DNA of 64,000 bases from Rhodoligotrophos sp. CJ14 (GTDB taxonomy: Bacteria > Pseudomonadota > Alphaproteobacteria > Rhizobiales > Im1). The notes under the pieces were generated by a model that was not told where the DNA came from, did not search any database, and was given only the letters and a program-made list of their open reading frames with translations. Each line of letters starts with the position of its first letter. The first letter of the stretch is position 1. Shown here piece after piece: positions 15,419-62,961 of this stretch. The DNA is taken from positions 4,414,001 through 4,478,000 of the forward strand of contig NZ_CP133319.1 of NCBI RefSeq assembly GCF_038811545.1. Reading direction: 5' to 3'. A program made the translations under genes and the position numbers.

Positions 15419-15871
15419 ATGTTTAGAACGCATTTCAAGCAAGAGCGTATCGCGCCGCCCTTCACCGAGGTCTGGAACAACCCCGCAGCCAAGGGCTTTC
15501 AGCAGGCCATGATAGAGGCTCATTCAGCCCTGGGCCGCTATTCCGACCTGAGGAATATGCCCCCGCACAAGCTGCAGGAGCTCCACGACCTGGTGCAGAA
15601 TACCCACAGAGCTTTGATTCAAGACACGTCACACAGTGTCGACGACCATAAATCCTACGGCAAAATCGTGGGCGATCAGTTCGGTCGGCTGAATCTTCTG
15701 TTTCTGGAGCTTGAACAAAAGCCCGAGATGGTCGGCACTGATGTCGGCCATTATCTGCGCCAGCTCGAACGGGCCGAGCGCGAGATCGGAAGTTACCATC
15801 AGAGCATACATGATGCCGCCGCCCAGCATGAAACTGGCGGCGGCCATGCCGATTGGGCAACTACCGCTTGA
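15419..15871 (+). CDS. Unrecognised small helical protein with C-terminal D-[FWL]-x-x-[MT]-x tag
   Basis: A 150-residue soluble protein that I do not recognise. There is no signal peptide or membrane span, and it appears mostly helical, with charged heptad-like stretches (for example LQELHDLVQNTHRAL and LRQLERAEREIGSY). The last third is His-rich (HQSIHDAAAQHETGGGH) and it ends HADWATTA. The Asp six residues from the end and the following aromatic residue match the ends of the proteins at 58239, 61229 and 62422, and a segment (PPHKLQELHDLVQ) resembles PNTKMHDMHELLQ of the last one. The start has no good ribosome-binding site. Its 3' end overlaps the convergent SDR gene by 11 bases. Confidence 0.65.
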   Translation: MFRTHFKQERIAPPFTEVWNNPAAKGFQQAMIEAHSALGRYSDLRNMPPHKLQELHDLVQNTHRALIQDTSHSVDDHKSYGKIVGDQFGRLNLLFLELEQKPEMVGTDVGHYLRQLERAEREIGSYHQSIHDAAAQHETGGGHADWATTA

Positions 15872-16589
15872 CCAACTGCCCTGGGCTATAGTCCCAGATC
15901 GCGCCTGTCTCTGTGAGATGAGGCGCGAGCAATGCGGGAATGTGCTGGGCAAGTTCGGCTGGTGTGGTGAGTGTGCTTGGATCTTCGCCGGGCATGGCCT
16001 TGGCCCGCATGGCGGTGCGGACGGGGCCTGGATTGAGCAGGTTGACCCGCAAAGCTGTGCTGGCCACCTCTTTCGCATAGGTGATCACCAGCGTTTCGAG
16101 TGCGGCCTTTGTGGTGGAATAAAGCCCCCAATAGGCCCTGGCATTATGGGCAGCGCCCGAAGTGATGAACAGCGCGCGGCCGGCATCCGACTGGCGCAGC
16201 AACACATCTAGCGAGCGGATCAGTCGCCAATTTGCCGTGACATTGACCGCGAAGGCCTCATCCCATTCCTTCGGCTTGATATGGCCGACGGGGGCCAGGC
16301 TGCCAAGCACCCCGGCATTCCCGACGAGGATATCGAGTTTGCCCCACCGCTCGTAGATCGAGGCGCCAAGCCGGTCGAGCGCTTCGAAATCCTTCAGATC
16401 CACAGGCACGAGCGTTGCCGTGCCGCCGATCTGCTTGATCTCGTCGTCGAGCTCCTCGAGGGCGCCAACTGTGCGGGCGAGCGCGATAATATGAGCACCT
16501 TGCGCGGCCAGCGCCTTCGCCGTGGCATATCCGATCCCGCGCGAGGCGCCGGTGATGAGCGCGATCCGATCTTTGAGCAGAGAAGTCAT
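15861..16589 (-). CDS. SDR family oxidoreductase
   Basis: A 242-residue short-chain dehydrogenase/reductase with TGASRGIG (about residues 13-20), GNAG in place of NNAG, a Ser in FITSGAAHNA and the YSTTK catalytic pair. The C-terminal half is shorter than in FabG and resembles YciK-type reductases. It is the last gene of a minus-strand block after purF, an order common in alphaproteobacteria. The substrate is unknown. Its 3' end overlaps the convergent small-protein gene by 11 bases, so the two transcripts would be antisense at their tails. Confidence 0.85.
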   Translation of the reverse strand: MTSLLKDRIALITGASRGIGYATAKALAAQGAHIIALARTVGALEELDDEIKQIGGTATLVPVDLKDFEALDRLGASIYERWGKLDILVGNAGVLGSLAPVGHIKPKEWDEAFAVNVTANWRLIRSLDVLLRQSDAGRALFITSGAAHNARAYWGLYSTTKAALETLVITYAKEVASTALRVNLLNPGPVRTAMRAKAMPGEDPSTLTTPAELAQHIPALLAPHLTETGAIWDYSPGQLVKR

Positions 16590-16690
16590 GGCTGCCGGTG
16601 TTATTGAGCTTGTGCGATCAGGTCAAGCTGAGCTGTGAGACCGACAGCGACGATGCGCGGGGCCGCTGCCCTGAGCAACAGCCCCGGCCT

Positions 16691-18223
16691 TTATCCCACT
16701 TCGGCCAGCAGAGAGAGCTGCCGCCCGGTGCCGCCGCCGCCCAGATCGGTGAGCGGTGTCGGATAATCCCCGGTAAAGCAATGGTCGGTGAATTGCGGCC
16801 GGATCGGATCGCGGCCTTGTTCGCCAAGGGCTCGATAGATGCCTTCGACCGACAGGAATGCCAGGCTGTCGACACCGATGAACTCGCGCATCTCCTCGAG
16901 CGTGTGATTGGCGGCCAGCAGCGCTTTCTGCTCTGGCGTGTCGATGCCGTAGAAGTCCGGATGTTTGATGGGGGGGCTCGCGATCCGCATATGCACCTCG
17001 CGCGCGCCCGCTTCATACATCATCTGGGCGATCTTCAGAGACGTGGTGCCGCGCACGATGGAATCATCGACCAGGATGATGCGCTTGCCCCGGATGACCG
17101 CCCGGTTGGCATTATGCTTCAGCTTCACGCCCAGCGAGCGAATATGCTGGGTGGGCTCGATGAAGGTTCGGCCCACATAATGATTGCGGATGATGCCCAA
17201 TTCGAACGGGATGCCGGACTGCTCGGCAAAGCCCAAGGCGGCGGGCACGCCCGAATCCGGCACGGGGATCACCACGTCGGCTTCGGCCGGTGCCTCCTTG
17301 GCAAGCTCCATGCCCGAGGCCTTGCGCACTTGATAGACGGAACGCCCGCCCACCACGCTGTCGGGTCGGGAGAAATAGATATATTCGAAGATGCACGGCC
17401 TGGGTTGGATCCGCGGGAAGGGGTGCAGGCTTTCGATGCCATCCTCGCTGATCACGACGATCTCGCCATTCTCGATTTCACGGATGAAGCGGGCGCCGAT
17501 AATGTCGAAGGCGCAGGTTTCGGAGGCAAGAATGGGAGCGCCGTTGAGTTCACCTAAGACCAGAGGGCGAATGCCGAGCGGATCGCGCGCGCCGATCAGC
17601 TTCTTATTGGTCATCGCCACCAGGGAGTAAGCCCCTTCGATCGCGCGCAGCGCTTCGATGAAGCGCTCGAGGAAGCGCGGTTTGCGCGATTGCGCCACGA
17701 GATGAAGGATCACCTCGGTATCCGAGGTGGATTGGCAGATGGCGCCGTTGCGGATGAGCTCTTCGCGAAGGGTCACCGCATTCGTGAGATTGCCATTGTG
17801 GCAAACTGCAAAGCCGCCAGCGGCCAGATCAGCAAAGAGAGGCTGCACATTCCGCAGGACCGTATCGCCGGTCGTGGCATAGCGCACATGTCCAACCGCC
17901 CGATCACCTTGCAAGCGCTCGATCACCTTGGACGAGGAGAAATGGTCGCCGACGAGCCCCATGCGCCGTTCGGAATGGAAATGCTCGCCATCGAAGCTCA
18001 CGATACCGGCAGCTTCCTGGCCACGATGCTGGAGGGCATGGAGCCCGAGCGCGGTCAAGGCGGCCGCATCCGGATGTCCGAACACGCCGAAGACGCCACA
18101 TTCCTCGCGCAACGTGTCGCCGTTCACGTCAATATCTGCGGAGACGAAGCTCTCTGATGAGTGATGGGTGGATATCCCCCTGACGCCACCACCATCACGC
18201 CGAAATGAACCAACAGCCACCAT
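16691..18223 (-). CDS. purF: Amidophosphoribosyltransferase
   Basis: A 510-residue enzyme for the first committed step of purine synthesis, making phosphoribosylamine from PRPP and glutamine. I chose the ATG at 18223 because AGGAG lies six bases upstream (18230-18234); an ATG 21 bases earlier lacks one. The nucleophile Cys of the Ntn glutaminase domain is in REECGVFGVFGH, so about 45 residues ahead of it would be a propeptide or extension. The PRPP-binding motif is ILVDDSIVRGTTS. It follows cvpA closely (about 30 bases), as in many proteobacteria. Confidence 0.95.
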   Translation of the reverse strand: MVAVGSFRRDGGGVRGISTHHSSESFVSADIDVNGDTLREECGVFGVFGHPDAAALTALGLHALQHRGQEAAGIVSFDGEHFHSERRMGLVGDHFSSSKVIERLQGDRAVGHVRYATTGDTVLRNVQPLFADLAAGGFAVCHNGNLTNAVTLREELIRNGAICQSTSDTEVILHLVAQSRKPRFLERFIEALRAIEGAYSLVAMTNKKLIGARDPLGIRPLVLGELNGAPILASETCAFDIIGARFIREIENGEIVVISEDGIESLHPFPRIQPRPCIFEYIYFSRPDSVVGGRSVYQVRKASGMELAKEAPAEADVVIPVPDSGVPAALGFAEQSGIPFELGIIRNHYVGRTFIEPTQHIRSLGVKLKHNANRAVIRGKRIILVDDSIVRGTTSLKIAQMMYEAGAREVHMRIASPPIKHPDFYGIDTPEQKALLAANHTLEEMREFIGVDSLAFLSVEGIYRALGEQGRDPIRPQFTDHCFTGDYPTPLTDLGGGGTGRQLSLLAEVG

Positions 18224-18255
18224 ATCGATCTCCTGCCGGGGCATGTCCGAACCGG

Positions 18256-18933
18256 CTAATTGTTACTGCCGGTGCCCTGAGAGTCGTTGTTCAACAACTC
18301 GTTGATCCCATCTCCCGATGGGCTGCCATAACCTTCTTCCTCTTCACCGTCCGCGCCAGGGGCTGTTTCACCCGGATCATCCGTCTCGCTGGGAGATGGG
18401 GAGGCGCCGCCAGGTTCCGCGTTTATATAGGTCTTGCCCAACAGAGTTTCAGCCACGTCAGGCGGAAGAAATGAAATAACGAATGTGCCGGTGCGTTCGA
18501 TCACCGGCAGGGTGGCCGCATTGCGCACCCATTCCGGCCGGCGCTCGACGGGAACGAGCCAGATGAAGAACAGATAGGCCACCACCACGAGCAGAAGGCC
18601 GCGCAGCATGCCGAACAGAAACCCAAGGGTCCGGTCGAGTGCGCCGACGCCCGAATCGAGGATCCAGTCTGACAGCTTGATGGTGAGAATGGAGATGAGA
18701 ATGAGGACGACGAAGAAAGTGCCGGCAACCAGCGTGATATCTGCCACATAATCGGGCTGGATATAGCTCCGCGCCATGTCGCGGAAGCCGGTATAGGCAA
18801 GATAGGCGGCAAGGGCGGCACCGGCCCAGGCGATGATCGATAATACCTCCCGCGTAAAGCCGCGCATCAATGCAAGTATGCCTGAGATCAGCATGATGCC
18901 GATCAGGATGACGTCCAAGAGCGAGAACGGCAT
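18256..18933 (-). CDS. cvpA: CvpA family membrane protein
   Basis: A 225-residue inner-membrane protein related to colicin V production protein. Four spans are visible: about residues 4-22, 30-48, 65-86 and 103-125, with the family segment LMRGFTREVLSIIAWAGA. A hydrophilic, acidic tail of about 60 residues rich in Gly, Ser, Asp and Glu follows and is unlike the short end of Escherichia coli CvpA. In other bacteria CvpA affects envelope stress tolerance; its molecular function is unsettled. It lies between radA and purF on the same strand and is probably co-transcribed with purF. Confidence 0.88.
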   Translation of the reverse strand: MPFSLLDVILIGIMLISGILALMRGFTREVLSIIAWAGAALAAYLAYTGFRDMARSYIQPDYVADITLVAGTFFVVLILISILTIKLSDWILDSGVGALDRTLGFLFGMLRGLLLVVVAYLFFIWLVPVERRPEWVRNAATLPVIERTGTFVISFLPPDVAETLLGKTYINAEPGGASPSPSETDDPGETAPGADGEEEEGYGSPSGDGINELLNNDSQGTGSNN

Positions 18934-19167
18934 TTAGCGCAGGCTCCACAGCAGCTTATCGAAACAGGTCACCGGAACGGTACGAGTCGAGAGCGCCATC
19001 GTTCACAATCGCTTTACTTGTCGGGCGAGGTTTCAGCGGCACGACGAGTGAAGTCTCCAACGACGCTCAAGGCGCGCGGACTATAGGATGCTTTTGTCCT
19101 GCTGTCACATACAAGGCGAGCGATTTTGGCGCCCATGTGGTCGCAAGGGATCTGCCGTCCGATGAGA

Positions 19168-20607
19168 TCACGCGCCAGCGCGCAGCTTGGTGCGCCCTTC
19201 GGCTGCGGCCTGCTGTCTATTGCCCTCGGCCGGATTGAAGGATTGGACCCACCGCACGAGCCCCCTCAGATCCGCCGGCGCATGCAGAGCAAGCGGTGGT
19301 GTGCGCTTCCACTCGGCCTTCGCCGCCTGTGGCACCACCGCGGTCTTGAACCCGAGCTTGGCGGCTTCCTTGATCCGGGCCTCGCCCTGCGCCACGGGCC
19401 TCAGCGCGCCCGACAGCGCAATCTCCCCAAACAGGAGTGATTCTGCCGGAAGGGGCGCACCAACCAGAGAGGAAACCAGGGCCGCTGCAACCGCAAGATC
19501 GGCAGCCGGCTCTCGGATGCGCAAGCCTCCGGCGACATTGAGATAAACGTCATAGCCCCCGAGGCCCACCCCGCAATGGGTATCGAGCACCGCCAAGATC
19601 ATGGCGAGGCGGCTACTGTCCCAGCCCACCACTGCCCGGCGCGGCGTGCCAAGCGTCGAGGGTGAAACCAGCGTTTGCACCTCGACCAGCAATGGGCGGG
19701 TGCCCTCGATCCCCGCAAAGACGGCAGCCCCGGGCGTGGTCGAATTGCGATCGCCGAGAAACAGGCCTGATGGGTTTTCAACCTCGGCCAGACCCCCATC
19801 CGACATCTCGAAAACGCCGATCTCGTCCGTCGGACCGAATCGGTTCTTGACCGCGCGCAGGATCCGGAACTGGTGCCCGCGATCACCTTCGAAATAGAAG
19901 ACCGCATCCACCATGTGCTCGATCAGCTTCGGTCCGGCAATCTGTCCATCTTTGGTGACGTGCCCCACGAGAAGCACGGTTGTCCCTTTGCTCTTTGCAA
20001 AGCGAACCAGCGCCTCGGCGCCCGCGCGGAGCTGCGAGACGGTGCCCGGCGCCGCATCGATCTGCGGCGACCAGATCGTCTGCACCGAATCAACCGCGAT
20101 GACCGCAGGGCGCGGTCCATCGCCCAAGGTGGCGAGCACATCTTCGAGATTGGTCTCCGCGGCAAGCAAGACCGGCGCATCCGCAAGGCCCAGGCGCTCG
20201 GCCCGCAGCCGCACCTGATCGATTGCTTCTTCGCCCGAAATATAGACCACCCGCTCGCCACCCCGGGCGAGCTTGGCGAGCGCCTGCAGGATCAGCGTCG
20301 ACTTGCCGATCCCCGGATCACCCCCAATGAGCACGGCAGAGCCGGGAACAAGGCCGCCTCCCGCCACCCGGTCGAGCTCTTGAATGCCCGATTTGAGCCG
20401 CGCCGGTACGGGTGTTGCCCCCTTGAGGCCGACGAGCTCCACCCGACGCCCCTTGCCGCTTTTCGCTCGCGCGCCGCCGGGCAGGGGCGCCGCGGCGGCC
20501 TCCTCGATGAACGTGTTCCAGCCTCCGCAGGCATCACAACGGCCGGTCCAGCGGCTCGCGGTGGCACCGCAGGACTGGCAAACGAAGATCGAGCTGGGCT
20601 TGGCCAA
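19168..20607 (-). CDS. radA: DNA repair protein RadA
   Basis: A 479-residue RecA-like protein that promotes branch migration in recombinational repair. It has an N-terminal zinc finger (CQSCGATASRWTGRCDAC), Walker A GGDPGIGKST at about residues 93-102, the RadA-specific KNRFG motif (about 254) and a C-terminal Lon-protease-like domain. The start is TTG at 20607, supported by AGGAG five bases upstream. It leads the radA-cvpA-purF-SDR series, although 234 bases without a gene separate it from cvpA. Confidence 0.95.
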   Translation of the reverse strand: MAKPSSIFVCQSCGATASRWTGRCDACGGWNTFIEEAAAAPLPGGARAKSGKGRRVELVGLKGATPVPARLKSGIQELDRVAGGGLVPGSAVLIGGDPGIGKSTLILQALAKLARGGERVVYISGEEAIDQVRLRAERLGLADAPVLLAAETNLEDVLATLGDGPRPAVIAVDSVQTIWSPQIDAAPGTVSQLRAGAEALVRFAKSKGTTVLLVGHVTKDGQIAGPKLIEHMVDAVFYFEGDRGHQFRILRAVKNRFGPTDEIGVFEMSDGGLAEVENPSGLFLGDRNSTTPGAAVFAGIEGTRPLLVEVQTLVSPSTLGTPRRAVVGWDSSRLAMILAVLDTHCGVGLGGYDVYLNVAGGLRIREPAADLAVAAALVSSLVGAPLPAESLLFGEIALSGALRPVAQGEARIKEAAKLGFKTAVVPQAAKAEWKRTPPLALHAPADLRGLVRWVQSFNPAEGNRQQAAAEGRTKLRAGA

Positions 20608-20693
20608 GAGAACTCCTCGTTTAGGCCATCGACGGCCTTATCCACGCCCCTTCATACCGCAATTCTTATATGGGGTAAAACGAGAACATTCCG

Positions 20694-21719
20694 TTATGAG
20701 CGGAATTCACCGGCAACCACCACTTTGCCGATCATGGTGCCGGTTTCGACCATCCGGTGCGCTTCAAGGAGGTTCTCGGCATTGATGGGACCAAGCGATT
20801 TGGTGAGGGTTGAGCGGATCAGCCCTTCATCCACGAGCCGTGCGGTCTGGGTGAGGATCTCGTGCTGTTGGATCATATCCGCGGTCGCAAATTGCGGACG
20901 GGTGAACATATATTCCCAGGCGATCCTGATGCTCTTGGCCTGATAGAGCCCCGCATCCACCGGCTGTGCATTGGCAACGATGAAGCATACGGTGCCTTGT
21001 GGCGCGACGAGCTCGGCGGCCGGTTTGAAATAGCTATCGGTGGATGAGCAGCACAGAATCGCATCAACCGATTCGATGCCGAGTTTTCGGACCGAAGCCA
21101 CCAGGTCCCGATGGTCGGCAATATGGTTGGCCCCGAGCGTGCGGCACCAGTCAGCCGTTTCTGTCCGTGAAGCGGTGGCGATGACAGTAAGACCGGCCAG
21201 CCGGGCGAGCTGGATCGCGATCGAGCCGACCCCGCCGGCCCCCCCAATAATGAGCAGGCTGCGCTCAGAATTCGCGCCGCGGTCTTTCGAGAAGCCGATG
21301 CGGTCGTGAATGGCCTCCCAAGCGGTGAGCGTGGTGAGCGGCAGCGCTGCAGCTTGAGCGAAATCGAGCGATTTGGGTTTTGCGGCAACGATCCGCTCGT
21401 CAATGGCAACGAGCTCCGCATTGCTGCCATTCCGCGTGATATCGCCCGCGAAATAGACCGCATCACCCGGTTTGAACATCGAGCAGTCTGGGCCCGTGGC
21501 CTCCACGATGCCGGCCCCGTCATAGCCGAGCACGCGCGGGCTGCTCAGCCGTTCCTTGATCCGGATGCCGCGCACTTTGGTGTCGACCGGATTGACCGAC
21601 ACCGCCTTCACCCGCACCAGGAGGTCTCGCGGCCGCAGCTCGGGCGTGGGCAATTCCAGATCCACCAGGGCCTCGGGATCAGTGACCGGTCGCGACTGGA
21701 ACAGGCCGATGGCGCGCAT
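20694..21719 (-). CDS. Zinc-type alcohol dehydrogenase-like oxidoreductase (MDR family)
   Basis: A 341-residue medium-chain reductase with the GroES-like N-terminal half (VKAVSVNPVDTKVR) and a nucleotide-binding half (IIGGAGGVGSIAIQLARLAG, about residues 150-170). The zinc-ligand Cys residues of true alcohol dehydrogenases are absent, so it is probably an NADPH-dependent quinone oxidoreductase or enone reductase. A ribosome-binding site (AGGAG) lies eight bases before the ATG. It sits between radA and the lipid-transport pair on the same strand, 44 bases from the latter. The physiological substrate is unknown. Confidence 0.85.
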   Translation of the reverse strand: MRAIGLFQSRPVTDPEALVDLELPTPELRPRDLLVRVKAVSVNPVDTKVRGIRIKERLSSPRVLGYDGAGIVEATGPDCSMFKPGDAVYFAGDITRNGSNAELVAIDERIVAAKPKSLDFAQAAALPLTTLTAWEAIHDRIGFSKDRGANSERSLLIIGGAGGVGSIAIQLARLAGLTVIATASRTETADWCRTLGANHIADHRDLVASVRKLGIESVDAILCCSSTDSYFKPAAELVAPQGTVCFIVANAQPVDAGLYQAKSIRIAWEYMFTRPQFATADMIQQHEILTQTARLVDEGLIRSTLTKSLGPINAENLLEAHRMVETGTMIGKVVVAGEFRS

Positions 21720-21764
21720 GACGGGCTCTCCTGGGCTATCAGAGCGACTTGGCTCGCATATGCT

Positions 21765-22541
21765 CTACGGCTTTAGCACATCCATCTTGATGGGCCCCTC
21801 GGCGCGCCCGTGGATGAACTGCTCGACATAGGCGTTGCCGCTGGTGTCGATCTCCGAGGCTTCTCCATGCCAGATGATCTTACCGCGATAGATCATGGCA
21901 ATATAATCTGCAATCTTCCGGGCCGAGGCCATGTCATGGGTGATCGAGACGGCCGTGGCACCGAGCCTGCTCACGCAGTCGCGGATGAGATCATTGATGA
22001 CATCGGCCATGATCGGATCAAGACCGGTGGTCGGCTCATCGAAGAAGATGATGTCTGGATCGGCCGCAATGGCCCGCGCAAGGCCCACGCGCTTCTGCAT
22101 GCCGCCCGACAATTCGGCCGGCGAGAGCTCGCCAACTTCCTGGCCGAGACCCACTTGGCCGAGCTTCTCATAGGCGATCTCGCGTGCTTCCGCCCGCGGC
22201 ATCTGCTTGCCCTGGATGAGCCCGAACGCGACATTCTCCCAGACCTTGAGGCTGTCGAACAGCGCCGCGCCCTGGAACAGCATGCCGAATTTGCGCAGAA
22301 GCTCGTCCCGTGCGCTGCCTTTCATCCCGACCGTCTCGACCCCGTCGATCTTGATGGAACCGGCATCTGGCCGGATGAGGCCGAGAATGCATTTGAGGCT
22401 GACGGATTTTCCCGAACCCGAACCGCCGATGATCACGAGCGACTTGCCGCGATCCACCGCCACGTCGACGCCATCCAGCACGGTCTTGGCGCCGAAGCTC
22501 TTACGCACGCCGGAGAGCTCGATATGGGGAACTGCTGCCAT
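21765..22541 (-). CDS. ABC transporter ATP-binding protein, MlaF-like
   Basis: A 258-residue ATPase of the Mla/Mce lipid-transport branch. The ATG at 22541 is chosen because the upstream reading is an artefact of the neighbouring permease gene. Walker A is GGSGSGKSV (about residues 38-46), the signature is LSGGMQKR, Walker B is IIFFDEPTTGLDP and the switch His is in ITHDMAS. The GGMQKR form is characteristic of MlaF/TtgA-type ATPases that move phospholipids between inner and outer membranes. It lies 14 bases after the permease gene. MlaD-, B- and C-like partners are not in the window. Confidence 0.9.
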   Translation of the reverse strand: MAAVPHIELSGVRKSFGAKTVLDGVDVAVDRGKSLVIIGGSGSGKSVSLKCILGLIRPDAGSIKIDGVETVGMKGSARDELLRKFGMLFQGAALFDSLKVWENVAFGLIQGKQMPRAEAREIAYEKLGQVGLGQEVGELSPAELSGGMQKRVGLARAIAADPDIIFFDEPTTGLDPIMADVINDLIRDCVSRLGATAVSITHDMASARKIADYIAMIYRGKIIWHGEASEIDTSGNAYVEQFIHGRAEGPIKMDVLKP

Positions 22542-22555
22542 GGGTGGATCAAGCC

Positions 22556-24766: not shown

Positions 24767-24778
24767 TGGCGCAATAAA

Positions 24779-43840: not shown

Positions 43841-43890
43841 TAGAGGATTTTCGAGCGGAGTGGATACCGGTTCGCGTGAAGAAAATGCGA
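43841..43890. repeat. Interspersed repeat, copy B
   Basis: Second copy of the 50-base element at 3404-3453 (42 of 50 identical by my count). It lies in non-coding DNA. An ORF on the other strand through this copy is an artefact of the repeat. Confidence 0.65.
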
Positions 43891-44033
43891 CTAAGCAAGA
43901 ACTTGAGATGCGGCCTCGCGATTCGAGGAAAAGCAAGGCGCTTTAAAGCGCGCGCCCAGCCTGCCTTCGCTACGCTTCCTCAGCGTGACCTATGGCCGGC
44001 GCAAGAAGGTGGCGGCGATGCTCAAGGCGATGA

Positions 44034-52337: not shown

Positions 52338-52354
52338 CAACTGGAGATCTGCGA

Positions 52355-53284: not shown

Positions 53285-56200
53285 TCAAGCGTTGGTGAGC
53301 TGCCTGCTCGCGCCAACATAGTCTTGAAGGGGGCGCACTTCAAGCGTGCCACTTTTATAGGCGGCAATGCCCTCGGTTGCAGCGATCGCGCCGGCAAGCG
53401 TGGTGTAATAGGGCACCTTATGATAGAGCGCCGCACGCCGGATCGATCGGGAATCCTCCAGCGCTTTTGCCCCTTCGGTGGTGTTGAACACGAGATCAAC
53501 CTCGCCATTCTTGATGGCATCCACGATATGGGGCCGGCCCTCGAGCACCTTGTTCACCTTGGTGCATTCGATGCCGCTTTCCGCAAAGAAGCGCTGCGTT
53601 CCACCTGTCGCGATGATCGTGAACCCGAGGGAGACGAGTTTGCGGATCGCGGGCAGGATGAGTGGTTTGTCGCTGTCGCGCACCGACACGAATGCCGTGC
53701 CGGTTATGGGCACAGCAGCACCGGAGCCGAGCTGGCTCTTGGCGAATGCGGTGCCATAGTCTTGGTCAAGGCCCATGACCTCGCCGGTCGAGCGCATCTC
53801 GGGGCCGAGCACCGTGTCGACCCCGGGAAACCGCGCAAAGGGGAACACAGCTTCCTTGATGGCGATGTGATTGAAGACCGGGGCCTTAATGGCGAAGGCG
53901 GCAAGCTTGTCGCCGGCCATGAGCCGCGCGGCGATCTTGGCGATGGGCAACCCGATCACCTTGGCCACGAAAGGCACGGTGCGGCTGGCGCGCGGATTGA
54001 CTTCGAGAATGTAGATGGTGCCGTCCTTATAGGCATATTGCACATTCATGAGCCCAACCACATTTAGCGCCTGGGCGAGCGCCTTGGTCTGGCTCTCCAG
54101 CTCCTCGATCACGGGTTTCGGCAGCGAGTGCGGGGGCAGCGAGCAGGCGCTGTCGCCCGAATGGATGCCGGCCTCCTCGATATGCTCCATGATGCCGCAG
54201 ACGAACACCTCATTGCCATCGCACAGCGCATCCACATCGATCTCGATCGCATCGCGCAAATAGCTGTCGATGAGCACCGGACTGTCGCCCGAGACCACCA
54301 CCGCTTCGGTCATGTAGCGCTCGAGCTGCGAGGGCTCATGCACGATTTCCATGGCCCGGCCGCCGAGCACGTAGGAGGGACGGATCACCACGGGATAGCC
54401 GATCTCTTCGGCAATCCGACGGGCATCTTCCGCGGACGAGGCGATGCCATTGCGCGGCTGGGCGAGGCCGAGACGCTGAATGAGGTCTTTGAACCGGTCG
54501 CGATCCTCCGCCAGATCGATCGCATCGGGAGATGTGCCTAGGATCGGCACGCCTGCAGCTTCGAGCGGCCGCGCCAGCTTCAGCGGCGTCTGCCCGCCGA
54601 ACTGCACGATGACGCCCTTGAGCCGTCCGGACGTCGTCTCGACCCGGATGATTTCGAGCACGTCCTCGGTGGTCAGCGGTTCGAAATAGAGGCGATCGGA
54701 CGTGTCATAGTCGGTCGAGACCGTTTCGGGATTGCAGTTGACCATGATCGACTCGATCCCCGCCTCACGCAGCGCGAATGACGCATGGCAGCAGCAATAG
54801 TCGAACTCGATCCCCTGGCCGATACGATTGGGGCCGCCGCCGAGAATGATCACCTTCTCGCGCGCTGAGGGCAGAGCCTCGCTGCCGTCGCGACCGGGCA
54901 GGCCCGTGTCATAGGTCGAATACATATACGCCGTGGGGGAGGCGAACTCGGCCGCGCAGGTATCGATGCGCTTATAGACCGGATGCACGGCCAGTCCATG
55001 GCGCTTCGCCCGGACATTCGCCTCGCTCTCGCCGGTGAGCTCTCCAAGCCTTGCATCCGAGAAGCCCATCGCCTTGAGGCGGCGCATATTGAAGGCATCA
55101 CCCGGCAGGCCGTGGGCGCGCAGCTTGTCCTCCATGCGCACGATCTCTTCGATCTGCGCGATAAACCAGGGATCGATCGGGTAGGAGGCGTGGATCTGAT
55201 CGGGCGCGACGCCAAGCCTCAGGGCTTGCGCAACTTTCAGCAGCCGATCCGGCGTGGGGCGGCCGAGCGCCGCACGGATCGCGTTCTTGTCATCGCCCTG
55301 GCCGAGCCCTTCAATCTCGATCTCGTTGAGCCCCGTGAGACCGGTTTCGAGCGACCGCAGCGCTTTTTGCAGCGATTCCTGGAAAGTGCGGCCGATCGCC
55401 ATGCACTCGCCCACCGACTTCATGGATGTGGTGAGCAGGGGTTCGGCACCCGGAAATTTCTCGAAGGCAAACCGCGGGATCTTGGTGACCACATAGTCGA
55501 TGGTTGGCTCGAACGATGCGGGTGTTGCACCACCCGTGATGTCATTGTCGAGCTCGTCCAGCGTATAGCCGACCGCGAGCTTTGCGGCGACCCTGGCGAT
55601 GGGAAAGCCGGTCGCCTTGGAGGCGAGCGCAGATGACCGCGACACCCGCGGATTCATCTCGATCACCACCAGCCGGCCGTCTTTGGGATTGACCGCGAAC
55701 TGCACATTGGAGCCGCCGGTCTCAACACCGATCTCGCGCAGCACCGCAATCGAGGCGTTGCGCATGACCTGATATTCTTTGTCCGTGAGCGTGAGCGCAG
55801 GGGCGACGGTGATCGAATCGCCGGTATGGACGCCCATCGGGTCGATATTCTCAATCGAGCAGATGATGATGCAATTGTCGTCGCGATCGCGAACGACCTC
55901 CATCTCATACTCTTTCCAGCCGAGCACCGATTCCTCGATCAGCACCTCATTGGTGGGCGAGGCATCGATGCCGCGCTCGACAATGTCGAGAAACTCCTCG
56001 CGGTTATAGGCAATGCCACCGCCCGTGCCGCCCAGCGTGAACGAGGGACGGATAATGGCAGGTAGGCCGATGATCTCCAGCGCCGCAAGCGCCTCCGGAA
56101 TGGAATGAGCCAGTTCCGAGCGCGGCGTCTCAAGCCCGATCCGCGCCATGGCCTCGCGGAACAGCTCGCGATCCTCCGCCTTGTCGATGGCCTCTGCGGT

Positions 56201-56554
56201 GGCGCCGATCATCTCGACGCCGAATGTTTCGAGCACCCCCATCCGCCGCAGGGAAAGGGCGGTATTCAAGGCCGTCTGCCCACCCATGGTTGGCAGCAAT
56301 GCATCCGGCCTTTCCTTCTCGATGATTCTGGCGACGATCTCCGGTGTGATCGGCTCGATATAGGTCGCATCGGCCAATTCCGGGTCGGTCATGATGGTGG
56401 CCGGATTGGAATTGACGAGGACGACGCGATAGCCCTCTTCCTTGAGGGCCTTCACGGCCTGGGTTCCGGAATAATCGAACTCACTGGCCTGCCCGATAAT
56501 GATCGGGCCGGCTCCAACGATCAGAATGCTTTTGATGTCTGTGCGTTTCGGCAT
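53285..56554 (-). CDS. carB: Carbamoyl-phosphate synthase large subunit
   Basis: A 1089-residue enzyme that makes carbamoyl phosphate for arginine and pyrimidine synthesis from ammonia, bicarbonate and two ATP. It starts [21 protein letters not shown]. Two homologous ATP-grasp halves are visible, the second beginning with [19 protein letters not shown] at about residue 570; the C-terminal allosteric domain (about residue 950 on) follows. Full length for the family. The partner carA is about 2.4 kb away on the same strand, with small genes between them. Confidence 0.97.
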
Positions 56555-56652
56555 GCGGCAGGATCGCCCTTCTCGGCGGAGGTCGCGCGCTTCCTACACC
56601 ATCGTTTCCGGCCTGACCAGTTTGAATGTTGCCGCCGCCCGAGCAGCCGCCA

Positions 56653-56739
56653 TTACCCCGGCAGGCCGATGACTGCCATGGTTGAGATGATGAGAACTGC
56701 TACGATGCACCAAACCGCCAGCGTGACAAGCGTTTCCAT
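56653..56739 (-). CDS. Candidate 28-residue single-span membrane peptide
   Basis: An open frame from ATG (56739) to TAA (56653-56655) encodes 28 residues, almost entirely hydrophobic (METLVTLAVWCIVAVLIIST then MAVIGLPG), enough for one membrane span. It lies about 100 bases upstream of carB on the same strand. No convincing ribosome-binding site is seen, which lowers confidence. It could be a leader peptide for carB or a small membrane regulator. Confidence 0.4.
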   Translation of the reverse strand: METLVTLAVWCIVAVLIISTMAVIGLPG

Positions 56740-56860
56740 TTGAGGACTCGGGAATCGTTAACCCTGACGGAGAGTGGCGGGTAGCGATGCAACCGAGGCT
56801 GAATGGGCCGTTCATCAATCGGACAGGAATCGCGGAGTGGCTGAAGCCGCGGAAGAGCCA

Positions 56861-56903
56861 AAACGAAAAAGCATGATCCATCATTGCGAACGGATCATGC
56901 TTT
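56861..56903 (-). terminator. Strong intrinsic terminator on the minus strand
   Basis: Perfect 12-bp arms AAAGCATGATCC (56868-56879) and GGATCATGCTTT (56892-56903) with a 12-base loop; on the minus strand the stem is followed by TTCGTTTTGG after its own T-rich end. It should end the transcript of the small exported protein at 57001. Confidence 0.75.
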
Positions 56904-56915
56904 CACTGATGAGAT

Positions 56916-56977
56916 GAGCTGGAAGCACCCAGCCGGATGTTGAGAGGGGCGGACGCCCGGCGGGTTGCTTCCAGCTC
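56916..56977. repeat. Extended 20-bp hairpin
   Basis: A 12-bp perfect outer stem (GAGCTGGAAGCA / TGCTTCCAGCTC) continues inward with CCC/GGG and GCCGG/CCGGC, each side with one bulged base, around a 20-base loop. It lies between the small exported gene's stop and the terminator, so it would be in that mRNA's 3' end. Confidence 0.6.
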
Positions 56978-57000
56978 GCTGCCTTAGAGGCAGGATGGGT

Positions 57001-57231
57001 TCACGCATCTCTGCATTCCGCGACAGCACAGGGCTCGACGGTAATCATTGCGGCCGGTGGCCACACCCTGTTCTTCACGGCGATCACATTGTTGTTGCTG
57101 ACTGAAGCATGGTTCGGCGTGACAACCACGATCTGTGGTGTAGTTGAAGTCACTGCCGGCGTAACCGCAGCAGCCATGCCCGAAATCATTCCCGTTGCGG
57201 CCAACGTTGCCAAAACGAATCGCTTGGTCAT
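57001..57231 (-). CDS. Small exported protein of unknown function
   Basis: A 76-residue protein with a clear signal peptide (MTKRFVLATLAATGMISGMA, cleavage expected near AAA-VTP) and a mature part of about 52 residues rich in Val, Asn, Thr and Pro, with two Cys near the end (VEPCAVAEC). GGGAG lies six bases before the ATG at 57231. I do not recognise the family. Its mRNA would carry a long hairpin and a strong terminator at its 3' end. Confidence 0.68.
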   Translation of the reverse strand: MTKRFVLATLAATGMISGMAAAVTPAVTSTTPQIVVVTPNHASVSNNNVIAVKNRVWPPAAMITVEPCAVAECRDA

Positions 57232-57519
57232 GTTCTTCTCCCGCACCTCAGCGGTTCCGATCTTGTCGGGCCGTATAGGAAGCAAATAAACCTCGACCTC
57301 GGAACTTCAGCTGAATGTTGCGTTCATGTCCTATTCATCTGCGAAAGTTTTGCGGGACTGTAAGGTTTCCCCCTGAATGCTTTCGCGCCCACTGTTGATA
57401 GCAAAACGTTAATCAAGCTACGTGGTTCCCAACGGGTACTCACGATTGCGAGATTTTGCTTGACAGCACTCAGGTCCTTGAGTCTCGCTGCGGCTCAGAA
57501 CCGGAAAGGAAGTGGGGAA

Positions 57520-57969
57520 ATGGCCGAGATTTCAGTTCTTCCAGTAAAGCCTGAGCATAGAGCGGCTTGGGATACGCTCTATCAGGGCTATGCCCGCTTT
57601 TATCGTGTCGAGCAGACATCGGCCATGCGCGACACGGTTTGGTCTTGGCTGATGGATCCTGCCCATGAAGTGTCGGGTCTTGTGGCTGTAATCGGGCAGG
57701 GCGCGCCGGTCGGACTCGCGCATTACCGGCCCTTCGCGCGGCCCCTCTCGGCCTCGCGAGGATTGTTTCTCGATGACCTGTTCGTTGATCCTGCCGTTCG
57801 TGGCAGCGGCGTGGCGGATCGCTTGGTCGAATCTCTGGCCGCCAAGGCAAGCGCCGAGGGCTATTCCGTTCTCCGCTGGATCACCGCGGAGAATAACTAC
57901 CGCGCCCGCGGTCTCTATGACCGCTTGGCCAAGCGTACCCAGTGGGTGACCTACGACATGGCGCCTTAG
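57520..57969 (+). CDS. GNAT family N-acetyltransferase
   Basis: A 149-residue acetyltransferase. The start at 57520 has a GGAAGTGGGG ribosome-binding stretch. The acetyl-CoA loop is DLFVDPAVRGSGVADRLVESLAAKA (about residues 85-110, the R-x-x-G-x-A form), and the C-terminal WITAENNYRARGLYDRLAKR is typical of small-molecule GNAT enzymes. The substrate is unknown. It is divergent from the small exported protein gene. Confidence 0.88.
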   Translation: MAEISVLPVKPEHRAAWDTLYQGYARFYRVEQTSAMRDTVWSWLMDPAHEVSGLVAVIGQGAPVGLAHYRPFARPLSASRGLFLDDLFVDPAVRGSGVADRLVESLAAKASAEGYSVLRWITAENNYRARGLYDRLAKRTQWVTYDMAP

Positions 57970-58021
57970 GCGTTGTGATATCTCTTGGCCCCGCAGCCGC
58001 TCACGGCGGACGAATTTCTCA

Positions 58022-58045
58022 CGAACCAAGGATGCTCTTGGTTCG
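58022..58045 (+). terminator. Hairpin after the acetyltransferase gene
   Basis: CGAACCAAG (58022-58030) and CTTGGTTCG (58037-58045) form a perfect 9-bp stem with a 6-base loop, about 50 bases after the stop. It lacks a T-run but is otherwise a good hairpin. Confidence 0.5.
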
Positions 58046-58238
58046 CGCTGGTGGATCATTTTGGGATCGAGCCAAGCCTGCCGCATGATCTAATCCCTGA
58101 CCCGAGCCGGTGCTCCAACGATGGAAAGGGTCAACCGCAGCAAACTCCAGATGCATACCTCTGGTTGATTTGCTATACTGAGATCATCTGAATACTTTAT
58201 GCAGAATTGTAAGTCGTTTTTATTTACTAGAGGCAAAA

Positions 58239-58772
58239 ATGATCTCGGATTTTATGAAAAATTTCGCTACAGGATTTCAGTCGTTCAAGTCTCTGGTGGC
58301 TGACAGCTTGACCGGAATTCGATTGGGAACCGCCACTTCCGGTCTGCTTGCGCCAATCGGAGCTCTGGAGGACGAAGATGTCGCTCATATCCTAAGCGAG
58401 ACGCACTCATTCAAGAACGTATGGCAGACGCTGCCTAACTGGCTCCACGACACTGTCAAAACGGTTGAGCCCGAATCCAGGCTGCTGCAGGACATTGCAG
58501 AGATAAAGCAGCAAGGGCTCAATCACCTGGCTGACCTCCACCTGGAGCTGCACCAGCGCGCGCCCGGCTGGGTCGATCGCGCCGATGAGGCATCAGAACG
58601 ACTTGAGAACCATGTCAATAGGAGCTTGGTTCACTTGGAGATGATCGGCCATGAGATTGGCGATCGGTACTGGTCGGAATCCGGGGCCAACCAGCAGGTG
58701 CTCGAAGATCTGGGGATCACGCCGCAAACATCCCATGCCAGTCACTCGAGCGATCTGGGCGGGATGCACTGA
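58239..58772 (+). CDS. Unrecognised small helical protein with C-terminal D-[FWL]-x-x-[MT]-x tag
   Basis: A 177-residue soluble protein, mostly helical, without signal peptide. AGAGG lies five bases before the ATG in a low-GC stretch. Helical parts include LLQDIAEIKQQGLNHLADLHLEL. The last 15 residues are His- and Ser-rich (SHASH) and end SSDLGGMH, matching the position-specific tag at the ends of the proteins at 15419, 61229 and 62422. I do not recognise a known family. It is convergent with carA. Confidence 0.68.
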   Translation: MISDFMKNFATGFQSFKSLVADSLTGIRLGTATSGLLAPIGALEDEDVAHILSETHSFKNVWQTLPNWLHDTVKTVEPESRLLQDIAEIKQQGLNHLADLHLELHQRAPGWVDRADEASERLENHVNRSLVHLEMIGHEIGDRYWSESGANQQVLEDLGITPQTSHASHSSDLGGMH

Positions 58773-58831
58773 CTGCGATTTCGCGGGCGACGCTCCAAGC
58801 AAGAAATGAGTTCCGCCTAACGATGACACAC

Positions 58832-58860
58832 GCCCGATCCGATGGCTGATTGGATCAGGC
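58832..58860 (+). terminator. Hairpin after the 58239 gene
   Basis: GCCCGATCC (58832-58840) pairs with GGATCAGGC (58852-58860) with one mismatch, around an 11-base loop, followed by a C/T-rich run (TTCTCTCCTC). A plausible terminator between convergent genes. Confidence 0.5.
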
Positions 58861-58938
58861 GTTCTCTCCTCTAATCTAAGCGTTTGCTCTTAATCACCCG
58901 GCGCAGCAGGCTTAGCGCTTGGGAGGCGGCTTTTGCTG

Positions 58939-60186
58939 TTACGAGCCCCTTGCCGCTTTATTGCGCTCGATAAGATCGACGAACCGCTTGAAGAGGTAAT
59001 GGCTGTCCTGCGGGCCGGGTGATGCTTCGGGGTGGTACTGCACCGAGAAGACCGGCTTGTCCTTGAGAGCGATCCCGCAATTGCTGCCGTCGAACAGCGA
59101 AACGTGAGTCTCGACAACCCCTTCCGGCAATGTTTCGCGATCGACGGTGAAGCCGTGATTCATCGAGGTGATTTCAACCTTGCCCGTCGTATGATCCTTC
59201 ACCGGATGGTTAGCCCCGTGATGTCCCTGGTGCATTTTGCGGGTCTTGGCGCCCACTGCGAGCGCCAGCATCTGATGGCCGAGACAGATGCCGAACACTG
59301 GCTTTCCGGAGTCCACGAGCTTCTTGATCTCTGGCACCGCATAGTCACCGGTGGCGGCCGGGTCACCAGGGCCGTTTGACAGAAAAACCCCATCCGGATT
59401 GAGCGCGAGAATATCTTCAGCAGCGCTCGTCGCAGGCACCACAGTCACCTTGCAGCCCTGGCTGGCGAGGCACCGCAGGATGTTGCGTTTCAAGCCATAA
59501 TCGACGGCGACCACGTGGTGGCGCGGCTCTTCCTGGCGCCCGAAGCCCTCCGGCCATTGCCACACCGTCTCATCCCAATCATAGCGCTGGGTGGCGGAGA
59601 CCTCCGGCACGAGATCCATGCCCTCGAGCCCGGGCCACCGCGCCGCCTCTTGTTGCAGGGCGGGAATATCGAAACTGCCCTTCGCGTTATGCGCGATGAC
59701 AGCGTTCATCGCGCCACGCTCGCGGATCATGGCGGTGAGCGCGCGCGTATCGACCCCGCTGATGCCGATGATGCCGCGCATCTTGAGCCATTGATCGAAA
59801 TGCCGTTGCGCCCGGTAGTTGGAAGGCTCGGTGATCGCGGTCTTCAGAACGCAGCCGCGCACATGCGATGAGGCAGCCAGATTGGCCGTCTCTATATCCT
59901 CGTCATTGGCGCCGATATTGCCGATATGCGGGAAGGTGAACGCGATGATCTGACCGGCATAGGATGGGTCCGTGAGGATCTCCTGATAACCCGTGATCGC
60001 TGTGTTGAAGCAGACCTCGCCCACGGCCGAGCCTTCCGCTCCGACCCCGAACCCTTCGATGACCGTCCCATCGGCAAGCACCAGCAATGCTGTGGGCTTG
60101 GGAATGGTCCATCCACTCGTGTTGCTCGCAGGCGAGAAGGAATCCTCCGGCCGTTTGATCGAGCCGGTTTCGGGGCGCGTCGACAT
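58939..60186 (-). CDS. carA: Carbamoyl-phosphate synthase small subunit
   Basis: A 415-residue glutaminase subunit that feeds ammonia to CarB. The N-terminal domain (ALLVLADGTVIEGFGVG, CFNTAITGYQEILTDPSY) is followed by the class I amidotransferase domain with nucleophile Cys in FGICLGHQML (about residue 297) and the His-Glu pair in QYHPEASPGP near the end. GAGGAG is six bases before the ATG. An N-terminal extension of about 25 residues precedes the family start. Divergent from yqeY. Confidence 0.96.
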   Translation of the reverse strand: MSTRPETGSIKRPEDSFSPASNTSGWTIPKPTALLVLADGTVIEGFGVGAEGSAVGEVCFNTAITGYQEILTDPSYAGQIIAFTFPHIGNIGANDEDIETANLAASSHVRGCVLKTAITEPSNYRAQRHFDQWLKMRGIIGISGVDTRALTAMIRERGAMNAVIAHNAKGSFDIPALQQEAARWPGLEGMDLVPEVSATQRYDWDETVWQWPEGFGRQEEPRHHVVAVDYGLKRNILRCLASQGCKVTVVPATSAAEDILALNPDGVFLSNGPGDPAATGDYAVPEIKKLVDSGKPVFGICLGHQMLALAVGAKTRKMHQGHHGANHPVKDHTTGKVEITSMNHGFTVDRETLPEGVVETHVSLFDGSNCGIALKDKPVFSVQYHPEASPGPQDSHYLFKRFVDLIERNKAARGS

Positions 60187-60398
60187 AGATATCTCCTCGG
60201 AGGCCGCCGAGCTTAGACTGCGCGAAATGATCGGCCGGCGCCGGTCGATGGCAGTCGCTGCTGGGTGATTGGCAGTTACCTATGAGACCCGACCACCAAG
60301 GTCAATAGCTGACGGATGAATGTGATGGCTTCCATCTTGGGACGGTTTATATAGGTCAGAGGCCAACCGGCGCTTTGCAGGAGCATGAGAGGGACACG

Positions 60399-60863
60399 AT
60401 GAGCGCGACCATTCGCGAGAAGGTCAATGAGGGGCTGAAGGCGGCGATGAGATCTCAGGACAAGCGCAGGATCTCGACCCTTCGCCTGATCAATGCAGCC
60501 GTCAAGGACCGGATCATCCAGAACCGCGGCGCCGGCAAGGGCGATGACATCGATGATGCAGAGGTGCTCGACATTCTCGGGCGCATGATCAAGCAGCGCG
60601 AGGAATCACAGCAGGTCTATGAGCAGGCTGGCCGGCTGGAGCTTGCGGAGCAGGAGCGGGAAGAAATCGAGATTATCCGCGAGTTCATGCCCCGTCAGCT
60701 CTCCGAAGCCGAGATCCGTGCAGCGGTGGATGCGATCATCGCCGAGCTCGGTGCTTCGGGTCTGAAGGATATGGGACGCGTGATGGGCGAGCTGAAGGCG
60801 CGCCATGCCGGCGCGCTCGATGTCGGCAAGGCCGGTGCCATCGCCAAGGAAAAGCTCAAATAG
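60399..60863 (+). CDS. yqeY: GatB/YqeY domain protein
   Basis: A 154-residue protein of the GatB/YqeY family, related to the tRNA-binding tail of aspartyl/glutamyl-tRNA amidotransferase subunit B. The start MSATIREKVNEGLKAAMRSQDK at 60399 has AGAGGG five bases upstream. Motifs STLRLINAAVKD and GMGRVM-like (KDMGRVMGELKARHAG) are typical. In alphaproteobacteria it normally lies between carA and dnaG. Here a block of unrecognised genes separates it from dnaG. Its exact task is not settled. Confidence 0.92.
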   Translation: MSATIREKVNEGLKAAMRSQDKRRISTLRLINAAVKDRIIQNRGAGKGDDIDDAEVLDILGRMIKQREESQQVYEQAGRLELAEQEREEIEIIREFMPRQLSEAEIRAAVDAIIAELGASGLKDMGRVMGELKARHAGALDVGKAGAIAKEKLK

Positions 60864-61228
60864 TCGTCCGTGCCCAGGATTTGACAAAGTCTTCAGTAAA
60901 GAGAGTGTGCCAAATGGGTATATAAATGGAAATTGGCATCACCTGCTTTGTCGCTGAAAGAACTAAGGAAGTCACTTAGTTCTGAACAACCCATGTCCTG
61001 AGCCTGGTTATGTTGTCCAGGAGTCTTAAGCCAGAGTGGTCACGTCGCGGCCCAGTGCGCGCAGATGACATGAACTCGATCCGCGACACGATGCATAATC
61101 TGTGAAGAAAAACTATAGGTGTGTTAAGTCTCAGGGGTAAGATCTGAGGTGTCGTAAAATTTATGTAGTTAATTTAAGGTGGAGGTGCTTGTCCCTCCGA
61201 AGTTTTGCATTTCCGGTGAGATATTTCT
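60864..61228. other. Low-GC intergenic region at the head of the insert
   Basis: A 365-base gap between yqeY and the novel gene at 61229, visibly poorer in GC than its neighbours. It contains a hairpin at 60959-60983 and an AT-rich segment near 61106-61165 (TAAAATTTATGTAGTTAATT) that may hold a promoter. I see no ORF with support. Confidence 0.45.
60959..60983. terminator. Hairpin in the yqeY-61229 gap
   Basis: AGAACTAAG and CTTAGTTCT form a perfect 9-bp stem with a 7-base loop, about 95 bases after the yqeY stop. No T-run follows. It may mark the end of the yqeY transcript or be a regulatory site. Confidence 0.45.
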
Positions 61229-61867
61229 ATGCCTGTACTGAAATTAGATGGAGATAAACCCTCCGTAAATTCCTTTGATCATCTAGAATGGTATGGGAGA
61301 TCTTTGGATACGCTGCGTGATTTCGGCAAGAGATACGTGCCGAAAGTCATGCAGAATATAGGTACTATAAACGACAACATCCACCATGGCTTTCCAGTTC
61401 ATGAGCCGGCTGAGAAGGCGCTGTCCCAGGTTCGCGCGTTAGCCGGAGTTTGGGGCAGGGGCGACCATCGGCTGCAAGCTCTGGTCAGTGACGCGCCTCT
61501 CCTACAAGAGGCCAAGGAAACCGCCGCAAAGCAAATTGCATACGGAACCGGAGACGTTCGCGACGTCCTTAGCGGTATTCGAGAACAGCTCAAGCAAGTG
61601 CAGTCCTCGCCGAACCCGGCTGAGCTGACGGCTCACAAAGAGCTTTCTCATACAATAGACAATGTGCTGCGCCGGCTTCAGGCGACCAAGGAATACCTCG
61701 GTGGTCAGAAAGCTCCGCTGCCGGCTGTCGACCCGAATGACCACTCGAGCCAAGGGCAACCGTCAAAAGGGTTCATGATCGCAGACATTCTCGGGCTCGA
61801 TAAGAATGATGCTCATGCCTCGGACCTGGCGGGAGACTTGTCAGGCGATTTTCACGTGACCCGGTGA
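61229..61867 (+). CDS. Unrecognised helical protein with C-terminal D-[FWL]-x-x-[MT]-x tag
   Basis: A 212-residue soluble protein, mostly helical, without signal peptide or membrane span. GGTGAG lies eight bases before the ATG. Helical segments include VRDVLSGIREQLKQVQ and AELTAHKELSHTIDNVLRRL. It ends in SGDFHVTR; SGDF and the last Arg are shared exactly with the protein at 62422. Base composition is closer to even than in the neighbouring housekeeping genes, which suggests recent arrival. First gene of the insert between yqeY and dnaG. No known family recognised. Confidence 0.68.
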   Translation: MPVLKLDGDKPSVNSFDHLEWYGRSLDTLRDFGKRYVPKVMQNIGTINDNIHHGFPVHEPAEKALSQVRALAGVWGRGDHRLQALVSDAPLLQEAKETAAKQIAYGTGDVRDVLSGIREQLKQVQSSPNPAELTAHKELSHTIDNVLRRLQATKEYLGGQKAPLPAVDPNDHSSQGQPSKGFMIADILGLDKNDAHASDLAGDLSGDFHVTR

Positions 61868-62028
61868 GGGATGCGGTTCCACGTGCCGGCTTTGCCCCGC
61901 ACTGCAGGTCGCGGCTTGCACATCTCTATCTAGGGTAATGCTTTTCACAGCTGACTGTCGCGCATCGGATATGGGGACGGTTGGGTAATTTCAAAGTCAG
62001 CGCCAGGGGAGTACTGCCTGGACAGATC

Positions 62029-62331
62029 ATGGATAGTAATATGTTCAATAGTTCGAAGCCGATTTCGGGAGCTCAGCTTACCGCCGAACAGCTTGGTTAC
62101 CCGTCCCATAAGTCAATTCTCGGCTGGTTTGCCGATTCCAATTCGGGTCACGTGCACGGCGTGGCATATGGTTTCGGCGGCTACTATCCCGCAGGCTGGG
62201 GATATCACACGCGGGACGCGCAACACCACCTCTTGCCGGCAGCCACAGCCGAAGCCCTCGGTGCCCCCGAAACTCTGAAAACCCAGGGTGCGCACCCCTA
62301 TGATTTCGCTCACCTCTGGGGCTCTCACTAA
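62029..62331 (+). CDS. Unrecognised Gly/His/Tyr-containing protein
   Basis: A protein of about 100 residues, second in the insert. I take the ATG at 62029; the frame is open from a TTG at 61981, and an ATG at 62041 is a third choice. It contains a Gly-, Tyr- and Trp-rich segment (AYGFGGYYPAGWGYHTRD), two His-rich spots (SGHVHG, AQHHLLP) and ends FAHLWGSH. It lacks the Asp-based tag of its two neighbours. No signal peptide. It may be an immunity, chaperone or cargo partner of them; nothing in the sequence decides this. Confidence 0.5.
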   Translation: MDSNMFNSSKPISGAQLTAEQLGYPSHKSILGWFADSNSGHVHGVAYGFGGYYPAGWGYHTRDAQHHLLPAATAEALGAPETLKTQGAHPYDFAHLWGSH

Positions 62332-62421
62332 ATCCGATAGTGTGTGCCCCTTCGCGCACCTTCCCCTGCCGAAAGATCGCCGACCTTCTGATTTCTCCTA
62401 GCCACTCATTTTGAGAAGATA

Positions 62422-62961
62422 ATGAAACCCACGCTCGGATCTGGTTCTACACCATCTTCATCTTTACACAGCCAATTGCCCGGCCCAGCCGGACAACCTC
62501 ATTCCCCACTGTCTCCACTGCGGCTTTCCCTCGAGAAGATCAACCAGCATTGGCAAGCCGGATACCGGCCGGATGGCAGGCTCATCAGTGAAGCCGTTGA
62601 GAAGTTGCAGGGAACAACGGGCCAGGTGGTGCAAAAGGGGATCGATCTGCAGATCTCTCTGCAGGATGCTCACCTCTCCCCGAATACGAAAATGCACGAC
62701 ATGCACGAGTTGCTTCAGCTTGAGAAGCAGGTTCAGGCTACGGGCAATCAGCTTCGTGGTGAGCTTGTCAGCCTTCTGCAAGGCAAGAGCACTGAACCTG
62801 TCAGCGGGTTCGATGCCTATAGGTCCACGATCAACACGGCTTCCACGAGATTTTCCGAGCTCGAGCAAAAGCTCACGGGTCACCCCCAGGACCCCATGCC
62901 TCATGATCAGCATGGGCCTGACGGGCATGGTCACTCCGGCGATTTCTTGGATATGCGCTAA
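62422..62961 (+). CDS. Unrecognised helical protein with His-rich tail and C-terminal tag
   Basis: A 179-residue soluble protein. A Ser/Pro-rich N-terminus of about 35 residues is followed by a helical body with LEKINQHWQAGY and KMHDMHELLQLEKQVQATG, then a tail rich in His, Asp and Gly (PHDQHGPDGHGHSG) and the end SGDFLDMR. The tail could bind metal. The tag matches those of the proteins at 15419, 58239 and 61229. GAGAAG precedes the ATG closely. Third gene of the insert, the last before dnaG. Confidence 0.68.
   Translation: MKPTLGSGSTPSSSLHSQLPGPAGQPHSPLSPLRLSLEKINQHWQAGYRPDGRLISEAVEKLQGTTGQVVQKGIDLQISLQDAHLSPNTKMHDMHELLQLEKQVQATGNQLRGELVSLLQGKSTEPVSGFDAYRSTINTASTRFSELEQKLTGHPQDPMPHDQHGPDGHGHSGDFLDMR

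Follow-up and report, generated by a model that had tools for sequence, protein, structure and literature searches.

The locus raises the question of why small proteins whose bodies share no recognisable relationship, encoded within a single stretch of one chromosome, end in closely similar residues. The window, by which we mean the whole 64,000-nucleotide stretch (G000:C1:4414001-4478000), belongs to a 4.81-Mb single-contig genome (G000), and was compared with two genomes of the same genus (G001 and G002) and one of the same family (G003). The gene names carA, yqeY, dnaG, gcvPB, atpF and trb used below were read by us from translations and are not tool output.

Orphan ORFs of the window and their ends

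According to the original prediction, four unrelated-looking small proteins of the window share a C-terminal octapeptide. Re-reading of the translations confirmed all four ORFs and the eight terminal residues of each exactly as described, with an aspartate at position -6 in 4/4 window proteins and a small residue (S, G, G or A) preceding it. These ORFs, their terminal codons and one neighbouring ORF are as follows:

15419..15871, + strand: Cys-free orphan ORF of 150 aa with a His-rich end, tail HADWATTA, membership doubtful
15851..15868, + strand: DWATTA codons at the C-terminus of 15419
58239..58772, + strand: Cys-free orphan ORF of 177 aa, tail SSDLGGMH, orthologue P0001 in G002
58752..58769, + strand: DLGGMH motif codons at the C-terminus of 58239
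61229..61867, + strand: Cys-free orphan ORF of 212 aa, tail SGDFHVTR, membership probable
61847..61864, + strand: DFHVTR motif codons at the C-terminus of 61229
61981..62331, + strand: small Cys-free, His-rich ORF of 116 aa with a TTG start, ending HLWGSH and lacking the motif
62422..62961, + strand: Cys-free orphan ORF of 179 aa with a His-rich linker, tail SGDFLDMR, orthologue P0002 in G002
62941..62958, + strand: DFLDMR motif codons at the C-terminus of 62422, D and F codons synonymously changed in the orthologue

Three of the four tagged ORFs lie within 5 kb. The 61981 ORF, which has neither a Pfam nor an NCBIfam match, sits between 61229 and 62422 and is perhaps the same kind of gene as the tagged orphans. 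His-rich tails had also been ascribed to three of the four proteins; the 30 residues ahead of the last six contain five His in 62422, four in 15419, two in 58239 and one in 61229, and since at least two occur in 18% and at least three in 5% of 751 background ORFs, the claim is clear for 62422 and 15419 and modest only for 58239.

None of the orphan bodies reaches a Pfam family cut-off, the best matches below it being 15419 to Sec10_N (E 3e-4, 21.2 bits, cut-off 27.4) and P0007, a further protein of G000 described below, to DUF6308 (E 8e-4). Searches of NCBIfam with the five window ORFs (best E 0.006, far under cut-off) and of PHROGs and PADLOC with ten proteins (P0001-P0009 and the L088 ORF; best E 0.012 and 0.006) gave no family either, and PDB sequences returned weak matches only, such as syntaxin-1A for the 62422 family (E 0.07). 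We read the weak PDB-sequence and family matches as chance among helical proteins. Nothing on the tail was seen in a literature search that used general terms rather than the peptide itself.

The orphans have a common character in composition and setting. Cys is absent from 10 of the 11 compared (P0001-P0009, the L088 ORF and 61981), the exception being P0007 with one Cys near the N-terminus, and from 117 of 715 size-matched background ORFs. The GC3 of the window's orphans (0.57-0.67) is below that of most neighbouring genes, and the genes stand singly or in small groups among housekeeping genes. Their slots differ between relatives: the two genes that flank 15419 have nothing between them in G001 and G002, G001 has no ORF between carA and the next gene, and the number of ORFs in the yqeY-dnaG slot is three in G000, one in G002, two in G001 and none in G003. 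Both G001 ORFs in this slot are Cys-free and lack the motif (P0008 ends AGEFVG, P0009 ends DANMIMG). No shared promoter was seen by eye in ten upstream regions, and Rfam gave no match in window positions 57900-63200. As a side observation on composition, the median GC3 of selected ORFs is 0.55 in one stretch of G001 (L105, G001:C2:553001-569000) versus 0.79 in a second stretch of that genome (L078).

Orthologues in a sister species and conservation of the tail

Two of the four proteins have an orthologue in G002. That of 58239 is P0001 (about 40% identity, tail PSDFNAMH) and that of 62422 is P0002 (33-36% identity, tail ATDFHSMH), and P0001 and P0002 adjoin carA and yqeY in G002, as in the window. 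Conservation of the tail in orthologues, proposed as a check on the original prediction, is borne out in 2/2 testable families, with D, F/L and M at the same places. The linker just ahead of the tail is diverged or gapped in both pairs, while D, the L/F position and M are unchanged. At the codon level, D and F are written with different synonymous codons in the 62422/P0002 pair, and the D, M and H codons are identical in the 58239/P0001 pair. Moreover, 40 of the 72 identical residues of the 58239 pair and 48 of the 64 of the 62422 pair have a changed codon, and both are therefore real genes under protein-level selection.

As the paired alignments demonstrate, the motif is retained across two species on two unrelated bodies, even though these bodies and their linkers have diverged. 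Because these two proteins keep their ending in a sister species despite much-changed bodies, the ending is probably a C-terminal tag, a reading in which we place considerable confidence; for 58239 and 62422 themselves it is well supported by the comparison. The conservation also bears on the simplest alternative, namely that unrelated ends were picked out by eye. Chance of this kind, which we consider quite improbable for the set as a whole, would not account for a tail kept in both testable families; in its favour, the pattern was chosen after looking, and 61229 and 15419 have no orthologue. Indeed, no convincing relative of either was found in G001-G003 (best E 0.24 and 0.16), so that their membership is a matter of resemblance alone. 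On this basis 61229 (DFHVTR) probably belongs to the tagged set, whereas 15419 (DWATTA) is the weakest case, its membership being doubtful and an end arisen by chance quite possible.

A second alternative is that the proteins descend from ancient duplications and their bodies are no longer recognisably similar, the tail surviving as the last piece of a common fold and having no partner of its own. The position of three neighbours in one region would suit such an origin, which we nevertheless judge unlikely: the 58239 and 62422 families have no body similarity, and a diverged and gapped linker directly before the tail would be odd for a piece of a fold. In a profile-profile comparison of the two families the tail alone aligns (11 columns, E 0.13, probability 0.5%), which is not significant on its own.

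Both families are narrowly distributed. The 58239 family was found in 2/397 genomes of the order and the 62422 family in 2/41 genomes, in each case G000 and G002. No relatives were confirmed in a wider contig collection, where records near the window's genome may be missing, and a plasmid search with P0003, P0004 and P0010 gave no relatives.

Occurrence of the ending across the genome

The frequency of such endings was evaluated in 754 selected ORFs from 39 stretches of G000 (804 kb), a selection from which 62422 dropped out (an antisense ORF being preferred) and which also missed P0007. Exactly at the C-terminus, small-D-[FLW]-x-x-[MT]-x is present in 3/754 ORFs, all three from the finding itself, and the 69 positions further in contain this pattern 12 times in all. 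The narrower form D[FL]xxM[HRKQ] occurs four times in 241,695 background residues, which corresponds to about 0.08 expected at 4,800 C-termini, the gene number being assumed. In a larger background sample of G000, D[FLW]xx[MTI]x terminates 2/1,462 ORFs. Look-alike ends are therefore present outside the set, CDLLRTD and CDLRSTP being examples. The background frequency that had been named as decisive is thus low at C-termini, which argues against chance, and the figures are post hoc because the patterns were derived from the finding. The shared terminal core, D-[FL]-x-x-M-x, exceeds what chance would produce.

Searched as a DNA pattern across G000, the motif gave 34 matches versus 22 in a reversed control, a mild excess. 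Most of the 34 do not close a plausible gene, and 13 of the 30 that were fetched end in TGG, which is not a stop. ORFs of at least 100 aa among them are 58239, 62422, P0007, one each in L020 (seven Cys, odd composition), L034 and L038 (both with a longer ORF on the opposite strand), and a 510-aa ORF ending CDLLRTD. Two points speak for chance, the barely raised genome-wide count of the DNA pattern over its control and the similar ends of some unrelated ORFs. The search suggested for finding more members thus yielded one further plausible protein in G000, which by resemblance is likely to belong to the tagged set:

L043:9827-10318: P0007, tail ANDLLNMQ, in the slot between gcvPB and atpF

The gcvPB-atpF slot holds no ORF like P0007 in G001, G002 or G003. 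Genome-wide, plausible carriers of D[FL]xx[M or T(ACG)]x number three in G000 and two in G002; P0001 and P0002 are the only class-like pattern matches in G001-G003, where longer, ordinary-looking proteins match as well (ends DLPPMY in G002, DLPSMY and DFPAMP in G001).

Two further observations concern the surroundings of P0007. An ORF at L043:9517-9894 overlaps it in a different frame, and the two may be one broken-frame gene or two genes. In addition, a dispersed repeat of about 105 bases, with copies 72-87% identical, lies at several intergenic sites of G000 and is also present in G002:

L043, about 10320-10430: repeat site
Window, 43841-43929 and 3404-3453: repeat sites
L081, L095, L111, L042 and others: repeat sites

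A screen blind to the last residues covered 81 stretches of G000 (1.642 Mb, about one third of the genome, window included) and selected ORFs of 100-450 aa with at least four His in the last 40 residues and no Cys after residue 15. Among the 28 ORFs so selected, 18 overlap a preferred ORF; 17 of these were dropped, and 62422 was retained despite its overlap because an orthologue exists. From the 10 non-overlapping ORFs we set aside three as ordinary or doubtful on our own reading (L135:349, GC3 0.91; L167:19376, at a stretch edge and of odd composition; L183:11894, with a look-alike end in G002). This leaves eight orphans, four in the window (15419, 58239, 61981 and 62422) and four new ones (P0010, P0011, P0012 and P0013); 61229 and P0007 are not picked by this rule. 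P0010 and P0011 have no Cys, while P0012 contains two, both within the first 14 residues and possibly upstream of the true start.

Among the new orphans, D at -6 is combined with L at -2 in P0013 (QDSVHLS) and with I at -2 in P0012 (ADLLDIS), and P0011 (HEAHLG) and P0010 (HSDQLL) are without D at -6. In the 1,462 background ORFs, D at -6 occurs in 64 and D at -6 together with [MTILV] at -2 in 10, so that the chance of at least two in four is 0.011 for the former and 0.0003 for the latter, a residue set chosen afterwards. P0012 and P0013 may be considered possible members with a looser form of the motif. A similar screen of 47 stretches (924 kb) of G002 gave no accepted member beyond P0001 and P0002. 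Two of the new orphans form a diverged tandem pair:

L159:1940-2482 and L159:2518-3066, minus strand: tandem pair of orphans with His-rich ends (P0011 and P0012)

P0011 and P0012 share 27% identity over 98 residues (E 2e-4), and duplication with fast divergence therefore happens in this class, as the ancient-duplicate explanation would have it; the pair has, however, kept no common tail. Separately, L156:12515-13426 (minus strand) encodes a Cys-free orphan of 303 aa whose end is His-rich and which has no Pfam, PDB-sequence or plasmid match.

A putative reader of the tail and comparison with known systems

Taking the tail as a tag, we tentatively favour a model in which these proteins constitute a lineage-specific, fast-evolving and perhaps exported orphan set whose short C-terminal recognition motif would be read by an export or targeting receptor. 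Members of the set, including those of the window, are mostly Cys-free and placed between housekeeping genes as single genes or small groups, and several carry the terminal motif D-[FL(W)]-x-x-[M(T/I/L)]-x-COOH behind a linker that varies and is often rich in His, Gly, Ser or Asp. This flexible linker would present the tail, the free C-terminus would be bound by one partner, most likely a receptor reading the extreme C-terminus, and the bodies would act outside the cytoplasm as effector-like proteins, export being the uncertain step. Such a receptor is favoured because the proteins are orphan, accessory and mostly Cys-free and the linker is polar; the empty slots in relatives fit accessory, effector-like genes, and the absence of Cys is a weak sign of export. 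Counted against export is the number of carriers, three in G000 and two in G002, which is low for a general route; the motif-free P0010 and P0011, the lack of a new G002 member, the motif-free orphans of G001 and the modest 34 versus 22 matches also weigh against this model. A more specific version, in which a genus-restricted export route reads the six-residue D-[FL]-x-x-M-x and delivers changing Cys-free orphans gained singly between housekeeping genes, appears unlikely.

Alternatively, the tail may be an intracellular docking or degradation tag, with a protease adaptor, chaperone or assembly partner binding the C-termini of a small cooperating helical set. Adaptor and protease tags consist of a few residues at a free C-terminus, and the motif resembles them in its shortness and its place; to our knowledge it has no sequence match to such a tag. 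The small number of members per genome and the proximity of three of the four in the window also fit an intracellular role, which leaves the accessory distribution and the absence of Cys unexplained and appears rather unlikely overall.

If the tail is a signal, it would make orphans that these family libraries do not describe searchable and would supply a peptide for fishing out its reader; it would then also be a case in which a short linear motif persists longer than the protein bodies bearing it. Should it be nothing more than a leftover of gene-family duplication, it would illustrate fast divergence on a modest scale.

The original prediction had further linked the tag to a secretion machine, a protease adaptor or an assembly factor. 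A tail kept on diverged bodies is upheld by the two orthologue pairs and by P0007; no reader of the tail was found among the systems searched for in G000, which has no encapsulin and whose two VirB4 matches lie in trb-like clusters. Encapsulin cargo carries a short C-terminal loading peptide after a flexible linker. The orphans are alike in having a short C-terminal peptide on a flexible linker, but unlike in that G000 has no shell gene (PF04454, no matches in G000; control matches in 3/14 genomes), and a role as encapsulin cargo was rejected on this ground.

Effectors of type IV systems (VirB/VirD4, Dot/Icm) are soluble accessory proteins with a C-terminal signal, as the orphans would be if their putative signal is one. 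The orphan motif, however, does not resemble the E-block. VirB4 (PF03135) is matched in 4/4 genomes, twice in G000 and six times in G001-G003, and both matches in G000 lie in conjugation-like clusters, which we read by eye as trb. These two trb-like clusters of one chromosome are similar to each other (L135 and L136, G000:C1:2680001-2700000 and 3043001-3063000).

With regard to type I secretion, no RTX-type glycine-aspartate repeats were matched by Pfam or seen in the sequences of the window proteins and their G002 orthologues, and no genes for an ABC transporter, membrane fusion protein or outer-membrane protein were recognised among the window ORFs read by eye. The RTX signal is described as uncleaved, C-terminal, about 60 residues long and preceded by glycine-aspartate nonapeptide repeats, and a lack of Cys is noted for RTX lipases and for S-layer proteins that use type I export (PMC3034196). 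Compared with that description, the orphan motif of six residues is unlike the RTX signal of about 60, whereas the orphans are alike in placing their putative signal at the C-terminal end, in showing no N-terminal signal and in often having no Cys (PMC3034196).
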